Shown here: positions 15,992 through 21,371 of the stretch, piece by piece
Numbering within the stretch: the first letter of the stretch is position 1
Layout: every line of letters starts with the position of its first letter
Source of the DNA: Methylobacter sp.
GTDB lineage: Bacteria; Pseudomonadota; Gammaproteobacteria; Methylococcales; Methylomonadaceae
DNA length: 53,106 nucleotides
Reading direction: 5' to 3'
Assembly: GCF_004322395.1 (NCBI RefSeq)
Contig: NZ_SCTW01000070.1
Coordinates: forward strand, 1 to 53,106
Notes under the pieces: model-generated
What the model was told of the DNA's origin: nothing
The model's database searches: none
The model's input: only the letters and a program-made list of their open reading frames with translations
Made by a program: the position numbers and the translations under genes

Positions 15992-16276
15992 AAGTTTTTG
16001 AAACTGTAAATATTGATAAAAACCAAAAAATCCTATTTCTCTGGTATTGCAGCCCAGTTTAATACAATAACATAAGCAATCTAAGGTTTTTTATCAGGCA
16101 GATCCCCTTAAATCAGCCTTATTTTTATTACAAATTGTTAATCAAATACTTACAAATATTATTTTCAAAAAAATAAGAGATCATGAAGGTGCAATGCGCG
16201 TTTATTTCACTCAGATAAATTTGGCAACAATCTGATTCATAATAATTTAAGCATTTACCATTACTATCCGACAGAC

Positions 16277-16310
16277 AAAAAAAAGGCCGATGCAAATGCA
16301 CCGGCCTTTT
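16277..16310 (-). terminator. Intrinsic terminator of fba
   Basis: Reading the minus strand, AAGGCCGGTGCA pairs with TGCATCGGCCTT and is followed by a T-run of eight. It begins 15 bases past the fba stop. The rest of 15992-16325 is AT-rich leader of the CheB-CheR gene with no feature recognised. Confidence 0.85.
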
Positions 16311-16325
16311 ACTCAGCTAATCGAT

Positions 16326-17405
16326 TTATAGGCTATTAACTGCATTCAATTCCTGGAAAGCCTGTTCCAAACGAGTCACCATACCGACTTCACCGGCACG
16401 TTGCCAAACGCGCGGATCGTAGTATTTTTTGTTTGGCTTGTCGTCACCGTCAGGGTTGCCGATTTGGCCTTGCAAATAACCTTCGTTTTGTTTGTAGTAA
16501 TTCATGATGCCTTCCCAAGTTGCCCATTGGGTATCGGTATCGATGTTCATTTTGATTACGCCGTAGCTGATTGATTCTTTGATTTCTTCTGCGCTGGAGC
16601 CTGAACCGCCGTGGAATACAAAGTTCAGAGTGTTTGCCGGAACGCCGAATTTTTCAGAAACGTGTTTTTGTGAGTTAGCCAAAATGCTTGGCGTCAATTT
16701 AACGTTGCCTGGTTTATAAACGCCGTGAACGTTGCCGAATGAAGCAGCAATAGTGAAACGCGGGCTAATTTTGCTTAACTCTTCATAAGCGTAAGCCACA
16801 TCTTCCGGTTGGGTGTACAGCATTGAATGATCCATATCGCTGTTGTCGACGCCGTCTTCTTCACCGCCGGTGCAGCCTAATTCGATTTCCAAAGTCATGC
16901 CCATTTTGGACATACGCGCCAGATATTGGCCGCAAATTTCAATGTTTTCTTTCAAGCTTTCTTCAGACAAATCCAGCATGTGCGAGCTGAATAATGGCTT
17001 GCCGGTTTCTGCGAAATGCTTTTCGCCGGCATCCAGCAATCCGTCAATCCAAGGCAGCAGTTTTTTAGCCGCGTGGTCGGTATGCAGAATGACAGGTACG
17101 CCATAAGCTTCAGCCACATTGTGTACATGCTTAGCACCGGAGATAGCGCCTAAAATAGCAGGAGTTTGGCCTTCCGCTTTAAGGCCTTTACCGGCAATAA
17201 ATGCTGCACCGCCGTTAGAAAACTGGATAACGATAGCCGATTTTACTTTCGCGGCCGCTTCCAACGCTGCATTAATCGAATCAGTGTTAATGACATTTAC
17301 CGCGGGCAATGCGAAGTTGTTTGCTTTGCAAATTGCAAAGATTTTTTGTACGTCATCGCCAGTTACAACACCGGGTTTTACTACATCTGAAATTTTCTGT
17401 GACAT
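16326..17405 (-). CDS. fba: Class II fructose-bisphosphate aldolase
   Basis: 359 residues from ATG 17405, the same length as E. coli FbaA. AGGA precedes the ATG; the open frame upstream to 17483 is discarded. Zinc-ligand motifs are present: LHTDHAAKK, GNVHGVYKPGNVKL and VFHGGSGS, with the class IIA active-site stretch IKMNIDTDTQWATWEG. The enzyme cleaves fructose 1,6-bisphosphate to dihydroxyacetone phosphate and glyceraldehyde 3-phosphate, in glycolysis or gluconeogenesis and, in a methylotroph, in the RuMP cycle. It is a single gene with its own terminator. No regulatory element is obvious. Confidence 0.97.
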   Translation of the reverse strand: MSQKISDVVKPGVVTGDDVQKIFAICKANNFALPAVNVINTDSINAALEAAAKVKSAIVIQFSNGGAAFIAGKGLKAEGQTPAILGAISGAKHVHNVAEAYGVPVILHTDHAAKKLLPWIDGLLDAGEKHFAETGKPLFSSHMLDLSEESLKENIEICGQYLARMSKMGMTLEIELGCTGGEEDGVDNSDMDHSMLYTQPEDVAYAYEELSKISPRFTIAASFGNVHGVYKPGNVKLTPSILANSQKHVSEKFGVPANTLNFVFHGGSGSSAEEIKESISYGVIKMNIDTDTQWATWEGIMNYYKQNEGYLQGQIGNPDGDDKPNKKYYDPRVWQRAGEVGMVTRLEQAFQELNAVNSL

Positions 17406-17985
17406 TAAGGATTCCTGTTTCAATCTGTTACGTTGAGGATGATCAAGCCGAAAGCCATTGCGATTGCGGAAAACATCCGCCAACCCAATGCGGTCAGCCG
17501 CTTATTATAAAGTGTGTTCGTATAATAGGCTACTTGCCGATAACCCAATCCTCACACAGAGGCCTTTATTTTTGAAGTTGTTTATATAATCAGCCCGTTT
17601 AAACTTGGAATCGGCGCAACATTTCCTGAAAATTAAATTTTATTCCATTGTGCCGTAGACTTTCTTCTTGGCAAAGATTGCTTACTGTCTTTTGAACAAG
17701 AACCCCAGCGATAGCCTAAAGCCCTCGATGGTTGCCGATAAAGACTTAATGCTCACTTAACCAAAAAATCATTGGATTTGATATTTCCGAATGAGGCGGC
17801 CGGGCCGGTCGCTCTTTATGCCCGTGGGTGCTACAACGGTCAGTTCTGTGAATGAGATGATTTCACCATCTAATTAATTTTTCAGACCAGACATCCCTAT
17901 AAATTATGTCTAAAAACTTTACACTTTATTTAAAATAACAAACCCAAAATAATTAAATCATATTTATATTCAATAAGTTAAATAA
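17406..17985. other. Long AT-rich divergent intergenic region between fba and the VPEID-CTERM gene
   Basis: No gene was recognised. On the minus strand a TATAAT lies about 100 bases upstream of fba (plus-strand positions 17504-17509) but has no good -35 partner. The right half leads into the sigma-54-like promoter at 17986. Confidence 0.45.
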
Positions 17986-18002
17986 TTGGAACAACTATTG
18001 CT
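17986..18002 (+). promoter_or_regulatory. Candidate sigma-54 promoter for the VPEID-CTERM/exosortase module
   Basis: TTGGAACAACTATTGCT matches the sigma-54 consensus YTGGCACGRNNNTTGCW except at two positions and keeps the required GG-N10-GC spacing (GG at 17988-17989, GC at 18000-18001). It would give a leader of about 180 bases before the ATG at 18195. Sigma-54 control of PEP-CTERM/exosortase genes is known in some bacteria. No enhancer site was identified. Confidence 0.5.
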
Positions 18003-18194
18003 TGTAAGATAATACTGCAAATTGATGGGAAATTTTGGTTTTATAGCAGTACGCTATTATCGATGCTAAAGGAATTACAGCTTGTACTAGACTGACAGAG
18101 CTGAAATTGAGCCTAGATTGATTTGCCGTGACTATAAATAGCAGTTAATTTTTCAATATAATATTTTATTCATTTTAATCACTAAGGAATAACC

Positions 18195-18374
18195 ATGAAA
18201 ACACTCATTCAAACTACGCTTTTTTTATCGCTGGCTTTAACAAGTCTTTTTGCAAATGCACAAACAGCACCAGATAGAGTAAGTGCTCCAGAAATCGGCA
18301 TCGACAGCGCCGTATTAGGTATAGGTTTATTGACCGGCCTCGTTGCTCTGATTTCTGAACGCCGTCGTAAATAA
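18195..18374 (+). CDS. Short secreted protein with VPEID-CTERM-like sorting tail
   Basis: A 59-residue protein. AAGGA at 18184-18188 precedes the ATG. Residues 1-22 (MKTLIQTTLFLSLALTSLF then ANA) form a signal peptide. Only a few residues (QTAPDRVS) separate it from a tail made of APEIGID, a hydrophobic helix (AVLGIGLLTGLVALI) and SERRRK. That tripartite tail is the sorting-signal layout of PEP-CTERM-type proteins, and APEIGID is close to the VPEID motif that pairs with exosortase E. The dedicated exosortase E gene lies 100 bases downstream, which strongly supports the assignment. The processed product would be a peptide of fewer than 20 residues, so its role may be structural or signalling; this is unknown. 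Confidence 0.88.
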   Translation: MKTLIQTTLFLSLALTSLFANAQTAPDRVSAPEIGIDSAVLGIGLLTGLVALISERRRK

Positions 18375-18388
18375 TTTCTACCGCTTAA

Positions 18389-18420
18389 GGGAGGCGATGG
18401 TAAAAACCCATCGCCTCCCT
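18389..18420 (+). terminator. Strong hairpin between the VPEID-CTERM gene and the exosortase gene
   Basis: GGGAGGCGATGG at 18389-18400 pairs with CCATCGCCTCCC at 18408-18419. There is no tight T-run, only TCTTTTCTC 15 bases later. It may act as a leaky terminator or mRNA 3' stabiliser that sets a high target-to-enzyme ratio. Confidence 0.6.
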
Positions 18421-18474
18421 CATCGCATGCCCGTCTTTTCTCTTCGAGTTTCCACTTAAGTTTAACTCTCCAAT

Positions 18475-20127
18475 ATGCTGAAACTTGATGCCCTCCTCCA
18501 CCTGCCATCAAAAGGGTTGCTTGTTCAAAGAAGCCTCTTTCTGATCCTTTTAATAGGTGTGGAACTAACGTTGTTAACGGTGCGCTTTGATACTCAATCA
18601 TTTGAAGGCTCATCGTACCCGCTTTTAAACTTGCTAGGTTATTCCGGGGAATTTCTTAGATTTAGTATTGGCATTGCCGGCGCTTTCGTAATTTTTTCCA
18701 TATCCAGGCTTAAAATGACTTTCTCGCCATTAACGCAATCTATTCAACACTCAGCCTGGTTGAATTGGCTTTTTGCTCATGTAGCCTTGATATTCATATT
18801 TTATTGGCTGACGGTTATTTTATTCGAGAGCATTCCCAAAAGTGCGCTTATTGATACGGTGCGGGTTAATTTAGCCATTGTCGGCTGGTTGTTAACGGGT
18901 ATCTGCGCATTGGTATCGGTGTTATTTTCTATGACTTCGCCATCATGCTGGCGGCAATTTATACACCAACAACATAAGACACTGCTGGCCTCAGTTGTAG
19001 CGGGAGGGCTGATTTGGATTTTGGGTCAGGTCTCACAGCAGGCTTGGCAACCGCTTGCGAATTTAACTTTTTGGCTCTCTTTTTACTCGTTGAGAATGGT
19101 CTACCCCGAGGTTGTTTATGATGTATCTGAAAAATTATTGGGCACACCGTCTTTCCAGGTCTTAATCTCTCCGGAATGTTCGGGTTATGAAGGAATAGGC
19201 TTGATTGTGGTATTTTTAAGTATCTACATTTGGGTGACGCGTAAGGAACTGCGTTTCCCTCAGGTCTATGTTTTATTCCCTCTAGGTATTATGGCCATCT
19301 GGCTACTGAATGCGTTACGGATTGTAGTCTTGATTGCTATTGGCTCATCATTTTCCCCGGAAATCGCCGCAGGTGGATTTCATTCCAATGCAGGCTGGAT
19401 TACTTTTGTCATCATAGGCGTAGGACTGGTTTTGCTTTGCCAAAAAATGCCCTTGTTCAATAGCAAGCAAATTATACCCGACGCCTTATCACACGCAGAA
19501 ACATCATACGCAGCCCCGCTACTCGCTCCTTTTGTCATTCTGTTAGCCGCTCTGTTAATGACATCCGCTATGACAACAGGATTCGATTGGCTTTATCCGC
19601 TACGGGTTATTCTGGCTATCGTTACGCTGTGGCTGTTTCGAAAACATTACCGAGTGTATTTAAAGAACATAACCGGCACATCGATTGCCATCGGCTTTCT
19701 TGTGTTTATTATCTGGATAATGCTGGTTCCGACATCTGCCGATGCCAATCAGCAGTTTGCAACAGAACTTTTTAGCGTCTCACCCGTTCTTGCCGGTACT
19801 TGGTTATTATTTCGGTTTTTGGGTGCAACGATTACCGTCCCTATTATTGAGGAGCTTGCGTTCCGTGGCTATTTAATAGCAAAGCTGGTGAATACTCAGT
19901 TTGAATCCGTTAAACCGGGGCAATTTACTTGGCTTTCTTTTTTAGTCTCGTCTTTACTTTTCGGCCTATTGCATGGCGATTGGTTTGCCGGGACCGTGGC
20001 AGGGCTTTTTTTTGCTTTTGCACTCTACCGGCGAGGTGAGTTACTGGACTCGGTGGTTGCGCACATGACAACGAACTTATTACTTGCCGTTTATGTTATA
20101 TCGACAGGCTATTGGGCGTTATGGTAA
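18475..20127 (+). CDS. xrtE: Exosortase E/CPBP-family protease fusion (VPEID-CTERM system)
   Basis: 550 residues, polytopic membrane protein. The exosortase half carries the conserved Cys in SPECSGYEGIG (about residue 235), the Arg in LLNALRIVVLIA (about 285) and the His in GGFHSNAGW (about 302), the three catalytic residues of the family. The C-terminal half is a CPBP (Abi) intramembrane protease with EELAFRGYL (EExxxR), LFGLLHGDW and VVAHMTTN. This two-part architecture is that of exosortase E. It should cleave the short target's sorting tail and transfer or release it in the membrane, while the CPBP half may process the stump or a second site. The next gene, ubiG, is over 500 bases away and unrelated, so the module appears to be two genes. 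Confidence 0.93.
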   Translation: MLKLDALLHLPSKGLLVQRSLFLILLIGVELTLLTVRFDTQSFEGSSYPLLNLLGYSGEFLRFSIGIAGAFVIFSISRLKMTFSPLTQSIQHSAWLNWLFAHVALIFIFYWLTVILFESIPKSALIDTVRVNLAIVGWLLTGICALVSVLFSMTSPSCWRQFIHQQHKTLLASVVAGGLIWILGQVSQQAWQPLANLTFWLSFYSLRMVYPEVVYDVSEKLLGTPSFQVLISPECSGYEGIGLIVVFLSIYIWVTRKELRFPQVYVLFPLGIMAIWLLNALRIVVLIAIGSSFSPEIAAGGFHSNAGWITFVIIGVGLVLLCQKMPLFNSKQIIPDALSHAETSYAAPLLAPFVILLAALLMTSAMTTGFDWLYPLRVILAIVTLWLFRKHYRVYLKNITGTSIAIGFLVFIIWIMLVPTSADANQQFATELFSVSPVLAGTWLLFRFLGATITVPIIEELAFRGYLIAKLVNTQFESVKPGQFTWLSFLVSSLLFGLLHGDWFAGTVAGLFFAFALYRRGELLDSVVAHMTTNLLLAVYVISTGYWALW

Positions 20128-20651
20128 ACAGCAAACTAAAATGGACTATCTCATGAATCTAGGAGCCTGTCGGACTTACCAACTTTCTGTTGATCGTTCT
20201 CTTATTTTTCTTGCCCGCCGTGAAGCCCTGCGATGCTATGGGTAAAAAGCCCCGGAGCAAAGAACCGAAGACTCTCGAAAGCGCCCAAAGTTAAACCAAT
20301 GCGCATCATGCCGAGCGCCAACGGCTTCGTATAGGACTACATTTAGAATAATCCAATCAATAAGCGCTCCTCCACTTCAACAAACTGCATCAATATATAA
20401 AACTCATTCTCTGTAAGGTTCCATATATAAAAATCGGTTAACTTATCGTAAAAATAGCGATTACTTTCGTTAAGTGAAGATAACTTATCTGTCAAAGGCT
20501 AACTTCCAGTATTAAAATTTGCCACGGAAATTAAGGGATAAAAGTTCTACTGATATAATGATAGTAATCCAAGTTGTAGAAAAACAGCCCGTGGCAGAAC
20601 AACACATGACTAATAACCTAGTAATAAAGTAAACTATATAAACCTCAAATT
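20128..20651. other. Intergenic between exosortase and ubiG
   Basis: No gene seen. TGTCGGACTTA near 20168 matches an inverted copy near 10348. The stretch to about 20340 is GC-richer than its surroundings and may be remnant mobile DNA, but no transposase frame is readable. The right part is AT-rich leader of ubiG. Confidence 0.35.
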
Positions 20652-21371
20652 ATGGTTAGCACGATGACAGCAACAAACAATGTACACCCACACGAAATCC
20701 ATAAATTCGGCTCGATGGCGGAACGCTGGTGGGATACTCAGGGCGAATTCAAAACCCTGCATGATATTAACCCGCTACGTATCCAATTTATCCGGCGTTA
20801 TGCGGATATCGAAGGTTCCCGTTTCGTTGATGTCGGCTGCGGCGGCGGCATTTTAACCGAGGGCTTGGCTAAACAGGGCGCTGATGCACTGGGTATCGAC
20901 CTGAGTGAAGACCTGATCGACATCGCCGATTTGCACGGGCTTGAGTCCGGCGTTAATGCGCATTATCAAAAAATCAGCGCCGAAGACTTGGCCGAGCAAC
21001 AGCCGGAAAGCTTCGATCATGTGACCTGCATGGAAATGCTCGAACATGTACCTGATCCCGGCTCGATAATCTCCGCGTGCGCCAAAATGGTTAAACCCGG
21101 CGGCATGGTGTTTTTTTCGACGCTCAACCGTAAACCCAAAGCGTATTTGCTGGCTATTTTTGCAGCGGAGTATGTCCTGCAAATGTTGCCTAAAGGCACG
21201 CATGATTTTAAAACCTTCATCAAGCCTTCCGAGCTATGCCAGTCAGCGCGCGCGGCAGGTCTTGAATTGCAGGGTATGGTAGGGATCGAATACAACCCGT
21301 TCACCAAACACTTCAGCCTTGGCAAAGACATTGACGTCAATTACATCGCTGCTTTTAAGCGTTCCGCGTAA
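20652..21371 (+). CDS. ubiG: Ubiquinone biosynthesis O-methyltransferase UbiG
   Basis: 239 residues, the normal UbiG length. FGSMAERWWDTQGEFKTLHDINPLR is the family N-terminus (from about residue 19), VDVGCGGGILTEGLAKQGA is the SAM-binding glycine motif, and KGTHDFKTFIKPSEL is the UbiG-specific insertion. It catalyses two O-methylations in ubiquinone synthesis at the membrane surface. Two ATGs (20652 and 20664) are possible starts and neither has a clear ribosome-binding site. It is followed after 3 bases by the HAD phosphatase, then yciK and sufT, probably one transcript. Confidence 0.96.
   Translation: MVSTMTATNNVHPHEIHKFGSMAERWWDTQGEFKTLHDINPLRIQFIRRYADIEGSRFVDVGCGGGILTEGLAKQGADALGIDLSEDLIDIADLHGLESGVNAHYQKISAEDLAEQQPESFDHVTCMEMLEHVPDPGSIISACAKMVKPGGMVFFSTLNRKPKAYLLAIFAAEYVLQMLPKGTHDFKTFIKPSELCQSARAAGLELQGMVGIEYNPFTKHFSLGKDIDVNYIAAFKRSA

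Follow-up and report, generated by a model that had tools for sequence, protein, structure and literature searches.

What does a fused sorting enzyme of 550 residues make from a neighbouring protein of only 59? The question is raised by a two-gene locus in Methylobacter sp., on a stretch of 53,106 nucleotides analysed here at its full length (the window). The target gene (18195..18374, + strand, stop codon included) has AAGGA 5' of its ATG, and is recognised by its reading frame, by the match of its tail and by purifying selection on that tail. Its product begins with a putative signal peptide, MKTLIQTTLFLSLALTSLFANA (18195..18260, +), which a home-made AxA heuristic cuts after residue 22, between ANA22 and QT. 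By the same heuristic cut there follow eight residues, QTAPDRVS (18261..18284, +), and then the VPEID-type sorting tail APEIGIDSAVLGIGLLTGLVALISERRRK (18285..18371, +), identified by profile match, by an HMM built without this tail and by alignment with 16 other tails. The composition proposed in the earlier note, a signal peptide, some eight residues and an APEIGID-helix-ERRRK tail, is thus found in the frame at this position, with a putative signal peptide and a heuristic cut, and the very short product it foresaw would correspond to the short mature segment. All signal-peptide calls below come from this AxA rule rather than from SignalP and contain visible errors, so counts of peptides are rough: cuts appear by eye to be misplaced in G573, in one G921 target and in the fourth G1031 target, and the targets of G083, G090, G940 and G1114 look signal-bearing yet are uncalled. 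A 13-pair RNA hairpin (18388..18420, +), recognised from the folding energy of the gap, separates the target gene from xrtE (18475..20127, +).

The xrtE product is an exosortase E with a fused CPBP intramembrane protease. It scores 230.6 bits on TIGR04162, above the curated cut-off of 150, and Pfam recognises both an exosortase domain and an Rce1-like CPBP domain (PF02517, 60.1 bits). The exosortase active site (19177..19383, +), comprising Cys235 (19177-19179), Arg282 (19318-19320) and His303 (19381-19383), is invariant in all 60 aligned XrtE. The CPBP active site (19849..20076, +), in which Glu459, Glu460, Arg464, His500, His530 and Asn534 show the EExxxR, His and HxxxN pattern, is invariant in 59/59 whole proteins; the 60th, from G1201, is represented by two partial matches side by side and seems to be split. 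The catalytic residues that had been read from this one gene therefore recur throughout its relatives, and the invariance of both active sites in whole XrtE indicates that both halves of the enzyme are kept. The PDB holds no sequence relative at E 0.01, and a structure predicted from a three-sequence alignment (P0002, L002, L003) had a mean pLDDT of 36.7 and a pTM of 0.21 and was left unused.

The PE motif, hydrophobic helix and basic C-terminus of the target are homologous to the tails beside other XrtE, as judged by an HMM from 18 other tails, which recovers the window tail among the frames of its own locus with E=1e-11 (36.5 bits). The established VPEID-CTERM model, TIGR04161, leaves the window target unmatched up to E 1 (hmmscan), misses it when matching 49/68 targets at E 0.01, and finds nothing in the window's own genome at E 10; Pfam likewise has no match to the 59-residue protein up to E 1. 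When the whole 4.59-Mb genome is searched with profile A1, built from 17 tails of which the window tail is one, that tail scores 1.6e-13 and the runner-up, E 0.044, has internal stops. The window tail is the sole convincing tail of its kind in the genome, which settles the search for further tails that the earlier note had called for. Codon comparison points the same way as the profiles: pN is below pS in all 15 hand-chosen pairs of tails (pooled, 0.11 vs 0.48), including the two that involve the window (0.23 vs 0.75 and 0.25 vs 0.57), and the tail is evidently under purifying selection, evolving like coding sequence. Tails beside XrtE keep the PE-helix-basic arrangement, as had been anticipated, with only the start Met and the tail P-E invariant across 68 targets. 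The segment between cut and tail is unconserved even within the window's clade, where it reads QTAPDRVS, AVA and AIA, and differs again in the 57-residue target of G142.

The presence of XrtE is patchy. It passes the cut-off in 16/151 genomes of the window's family (20 at E 0.001), in 3/12 of the window's genus among those listed, in 1/369 of a class-wide sample (the window's own genome), in 4/398 of a phylum-wide sample and in 42/394 of a second family, f223, which we take to be Rhodobacteraceae; scoring in the class-wide, phylum-wide and f223 scans was limited to three candidates per genome, and the 22 XrtE of a smaller f223 scan recur among the 42. Sixty loci were compared: 17 from the window's family (16 genomes and the MAG L002), 42 from f223, and G610. 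At 56/60 the fetched stretch includes a tail frame, within 600 bp of xrtE at 55 and at 914 bp in G1031, upholding the adjacency expected in relatives; the HMM behind this count contains 18 of the tails counted. As to the remainder, G142 and G080 carry tails on other contigs of the same genomes, the G928 locus has none within the 16 kb searched, and G1036, with none in the fetched stretch, has xrtE at a contig end. Profile A1, run on 26 genomes, matches 17/17 that have XrtE (E 2.2e-12 or better) and 0/9 that lack it (below E 0.3). The 17 include G099, where a contig end truncates the enzyme match and its score falls under the cut-off, and since most of their tails built the profile, the independent part of the result is chiefly G099 (four matches), G142 and the nine misses.

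Distances between XrtE sequences and between their tails are correlated, with a Mantel r of 0.94 for 15 loci of the window's family, 0.61 for 39 f223 loci and 0.78 for all 55, and 0/5000 permutations reach the observed r; shared descent alone would account for much of this. The window XrtE and its tail are both nearest those of G093 and G078, members of another genus (enzyme identity 49%), and not those of the genus mates G083 and G110 (40-41% for the enzyme), which suggests that enzyme and target moved together.

Small targets are common among these loci. We retained 67 of 68 target frames, leaving out a multi-unit frame in G1102, and 54/67 are of 150 residues or fewer; for the 43 of these 54 in which a signal peptide is called, the stretch from cut to tail has a median of 16 residues and a range of 3 to 72. 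Targets close to the minimum occur in G078 (54 residues), G610 (53), G1015 (59), G1063 (59) and G093 (55, or 67 from the outermost start), with just three residues between cut and tail in G078 and G093. An IQ-TREE phylogeny of 59 XrtE groups G000, G093, G142 and G078 (96/94) as the window's clade, and all four genomes have a target of 54-59 residues, that of G142 being on a different contig from xrtE; this suggests a small size kept by the lineage. Near each xrtE of the sister group, G133 and L002 (98/96), lie four targets of about 200-370 residues, and G133 has four more elsewhere in its genome, so that size is a property of the target and not of the enzyme. G1031 has five targets, about 190-240 residues by the start rule, one of them in a frame open for 539, and G099 has four small ones of 64-81 residues on contigs C33, C44, C52 and C95 (L105-L108). 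The earlier picture of one enzyme devoted to one tiny substrate thus describes the window genome, with its single convincing target, but does not extend to exosortase E generally, as G133, L002, G1031 and G099 have several.

Other arrangements were seen among these targets. The G099 target at L106 sits, by eye, between two transposase-like genes. Three small targets lie in a row near one xrtE in G921 (L184:8791-9758, - strand); the AxA rule calls a signal peptide in just one of them, apparently in error. In G1102 (L165:3059-3787, -) one stop-free frame holds three VPEID units and apparently several signal peptides, and could be read as a mini-target polyprotein or as adjacent genes that have fused. 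An exported-looking family of about 250-310 residues carries the XrtE tail at L002 4404-6391, L003 12785-14621, L005 634-1401 and L102 2293-3231; the members tested are unmatched by Pfam (two) and NCBIfam (two).

The short segments have a distinctive composition in f223. Among its 40 small targets exactly two cysteines precede the tail in 12, one in 2 and more in none, compared with shuffled means of 4.2 targets with two and 11.9 with one; 0/10,000 shuffles reach 12 two-cysteine targets, and 0/5,000 fall as low as 2 with one. At least two tryptophans are present in 18/40, and two cysteines also in 2/4 small targets of G099; the window peptide has neither Cys nor Trp. The G1246 target, for which no signal peptide is called, begins directly with MNWWNWWTYSGSSGGHHGTTTS-VPEID, and some f223 targets lacking a called signal peptide (G1246 and two of the three in G921) open with short peptides containing Trp or Cys. 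Their resemblance to the peptides left elsewhere after removal of the signal peptide points to a short outer peptide as the common product.

Expression may be weighted towards the target. The gap at 18372-18474 folds with -30.8 kcal/mol (z -5.28), its hairpin has no T tract directly after it, and Rfam gives no match at gathering threshold over 17000-21000. A hairpin (z below -2.2) follows the target at 15/26 same-strand loci vs 10/43 control gaps (Fisher p 0.0044). The control gaps were drawn solely from the window, its family and G610 and are at least 40 bases long, a length that two of the 26 gaps do not reach, and the gap of G126 was too short for the test. The hairpin is perhaps an attenuator or a 3'-end stabiliser, and there is modest evidence, from folding, that it fits the making of much target and little enzyme.

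A role at the cell surface is suggested by XrtE loci that lie beside polysaccharide-export genes or a gene for an Ig-domain surface protein. A Wza-like export protein gene is near the pair in 9/17 loci of the window's family (the one such protein run on Pfam matches PF02563). In eight of these nine a second gene encodes what is by eye an outer-membrane barrel, the single one tested being unmatched by Pfam, and the ninth locus, L086, encodes a Wzc-like kinase together with a barrel that Pfam assigns to PF10082. In 11/42 f223 loci (L187:4611-6836, L144, L173, L140, L170, L137, L171, L141, L139, L142 and L169) the product of a gene near the target has a common C-terminus, mostly ...QPFI...FD..DCxC. 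All 11 proteins contain the Ig-like Big_9 domain by Pfam, at least three SdrD_B and at least three a thioester domain, the latter counts being lower bounds as several frames end at the edge of the fetched stretch, and none has a VPEID tail at its C-terminus. At the ten of these 11 loci where the two were compared, gene and target are on the same strand (10/10), 61-127 bp apart in eight and overlapping in two solely because frames were measured from the first codon; in G1114 they share one strand and xrtE is on the opposite one. A pairing of cysteine loops in the targets with the C-terminal DCxC of these neighbours was considered and dropped, since 5/11 adjacent targets have no Cys before the tail.

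The window pair itself has neither a polysaccharide-export gene nor an Ig-domain surface-protein gene alongside; its flanks resemble housekeeping genes (aldolase fba and ubiG, named by eye) and not surface genes. Among genus mates, 20 genomes with 21 ubiG loci in all, xrtE is absent from the 1.5 kb before ubiG, and at 15/21 an aldolase gene lies next to ubiG with its orientation reversed relative to the window, so that at 16274-20581 the pair occupies a rearranged aldolase/ubiG junction. Gain of the pair at that junction would be consistent with this. An IS remnant behind xrtE (20128-20345) was also considered and is unsupported by copy number, the sequence occurring once in the genome and its start once in the window.

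We judge it reasonably probable that the locus is a dedicated sorting pair, in which XrtE processes the 59-residue pre-protein to a short, surface-anchored peptide. The signal peptide would direct export of the pre-protein, and the APEIGID-helix-ERRRK tail would keep it in the inner membrane, presumably N-out/C-in. The exosortase half, through Cys235, Arg282 and His303, would cut at or near PE and link the new C-terminus to an acceptor amine, and the CPBP half would make a second cut, either to complete processing in the manner of myxosortase or to remove the freed helix; that this cut may be obligatory is suggested by the invariant CPBP active site. The product would be a peptide of some 8-12 residues anchored at the cell surface, with a part in surface or matrix organisation. 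To our knowledge the acceptor and chemistry of bacterial exosortases are not settled; by analogy with archaeosortase ArtA the acceptor would most plausibly be an aminolipid or a surface glycan. For ArtA a Cys thioester followed by transfer to archaetidylethanolamine is proposed, and termed speculative, in the available text of PMC7157517. In a cyanobacterium, motility, the formation of biofilm and the attachment of motile filaments to their polysaccharide all depend on an exosortase (PMC12188702, text available in part), and of the four mutations in a rough-biofilm suppressor mutant of Methylomonas LW13 one lies within an exosortase gene and another close to one (PMC5874918, likewise); it is from these papers, and that on myxosortase, that we propose an anchored short peptide with a surface or matrix role. 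Anchored peptides this short could work through their number and not through their sequence, which would fit the unconserved segment.

Other readings of the small gene were weighed against this sorting pair. The idea that a larger target has decayed to leave this gene seems very improbable and was rejected: the large targets of the sister clade G133/L002 speak for it, but targets of 54-59 residues occur in all four genomes of the window's clade, the tail is under selection, the enzyme is intact, and similarly minimal targets stand beside the distant XrtE of G610 (53 residues) and G1015 (59). Tiny targets being common and clade-wide, their size is unlikely to reflect decay. We also think it quite unlikely that the protein is a resident two-helix membrane miniprotein with an uncut signal peptide, a partner, chaperone or regulator of XrtE. 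The three residues left in G078 and G093 would indeed amount to almost no product, and the invariance of the start Met and P-E alone suits such a protein, yet like tails end proteins of 200-370 residues with called signal peptides in the sister loci, tails occur also on contigs other than that of xrtE, and some targets have no called signal peptide, so that a two-helix form would not be general.

Nor do we expect, on present evidence, a free short peptide released by XrtE and its CPBP half as an extracellular, pheromone-like signal, which we rate as distinctly improbable. Very short, variable peptides and the excess of two cysteines in f223 (12/40) are what such signals might look like, but the window peptide has neither Cys nor Trp, the peptides of small targets with a called signal peptide range from 3 to 72 residues, and no receptor- or regulator-like cluster is among those common to at least three loci near xrtE (by eye, with a few Pfam runs). 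A wider proposal, unlikely in our estimation, is that XrtE pairs are makers of ribosomal lipopeptides, in which a hypervariable mini-peptide is joined C-terminally to a membrane lipid or surface glycan. The peptides might then run from 3 to about 70 residues and be plain, two-cysteine looped or Trp-rich, the sortase-like enzyme joining them and the fused CPBP half finishing the cut; if this were true, the window would hold a near-minimal case of roughly ten residues.

As a dedicated sorting pair, a natural substrate of 59 residues with a single adjacent enzyme would be near the smallest possible test system. Its expected product, a peptide of about ten residues with an attached group, would be directly readable by mass spectrometry, and the pair would offer a way to ask why two enzymes that elsewhere are of sorting type, an exosortase and a CPBP protease, are fused with both active sites kept.

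Among known systems, MrtX and MrtJ, as far as we know, lack an exosortase half. Myxosortase MrtX is likewise a CPBP protease and cleaves the tripartite tail at the C-terminus of its targets, and MrtJ / JDVT-CTERM has a comparable two-gene neighbourhood of enzyme and target, whereas the invariant Cys of MYXO-CTERM is absent from the window target (PMC11980579, in the text available). In rhombosortase / GlyGly-CTERM, single-target genomes also tend to have enzyme and target adjacent, but miniature targets are not described in the available text of PMC3237569, and the enzyme is a rhomboid-type protease unrelated to exosortase. Exosortase A / PEP-CTERM shares the tripartite tail; XrtE differs in its fused CPBP protease and in having one or few targets. 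Two further loci with an exosortase domain are present in the window genome, as are four matches to PEP-CTERM. Exosortases are linked to exopolysaccharide and biofilm in the parts available of PMC1569441 and PMC12188702. In the open-licence literature, as far as its text was available, nothing was found on the biochemistry of XrtE or on the VPEID-CTERM system, PMC3048395 concerning another subject. The closest relative is exosortase E / VPEID-CTERM (TIGR04162 and TIGR04161), with which the window locus shares an enzyme over the cut-off, the exosortase-CPBP fusion and an adjacent PEI-helix-basic target, and from which it differs in a tail that reads APEIGID instead of VPEID and is unmatched by TIGR04161. 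The pair is real, well paired and typical of a known system for which we found no characterisation in that literature, and is a good minimal model of it rather than a new kind.
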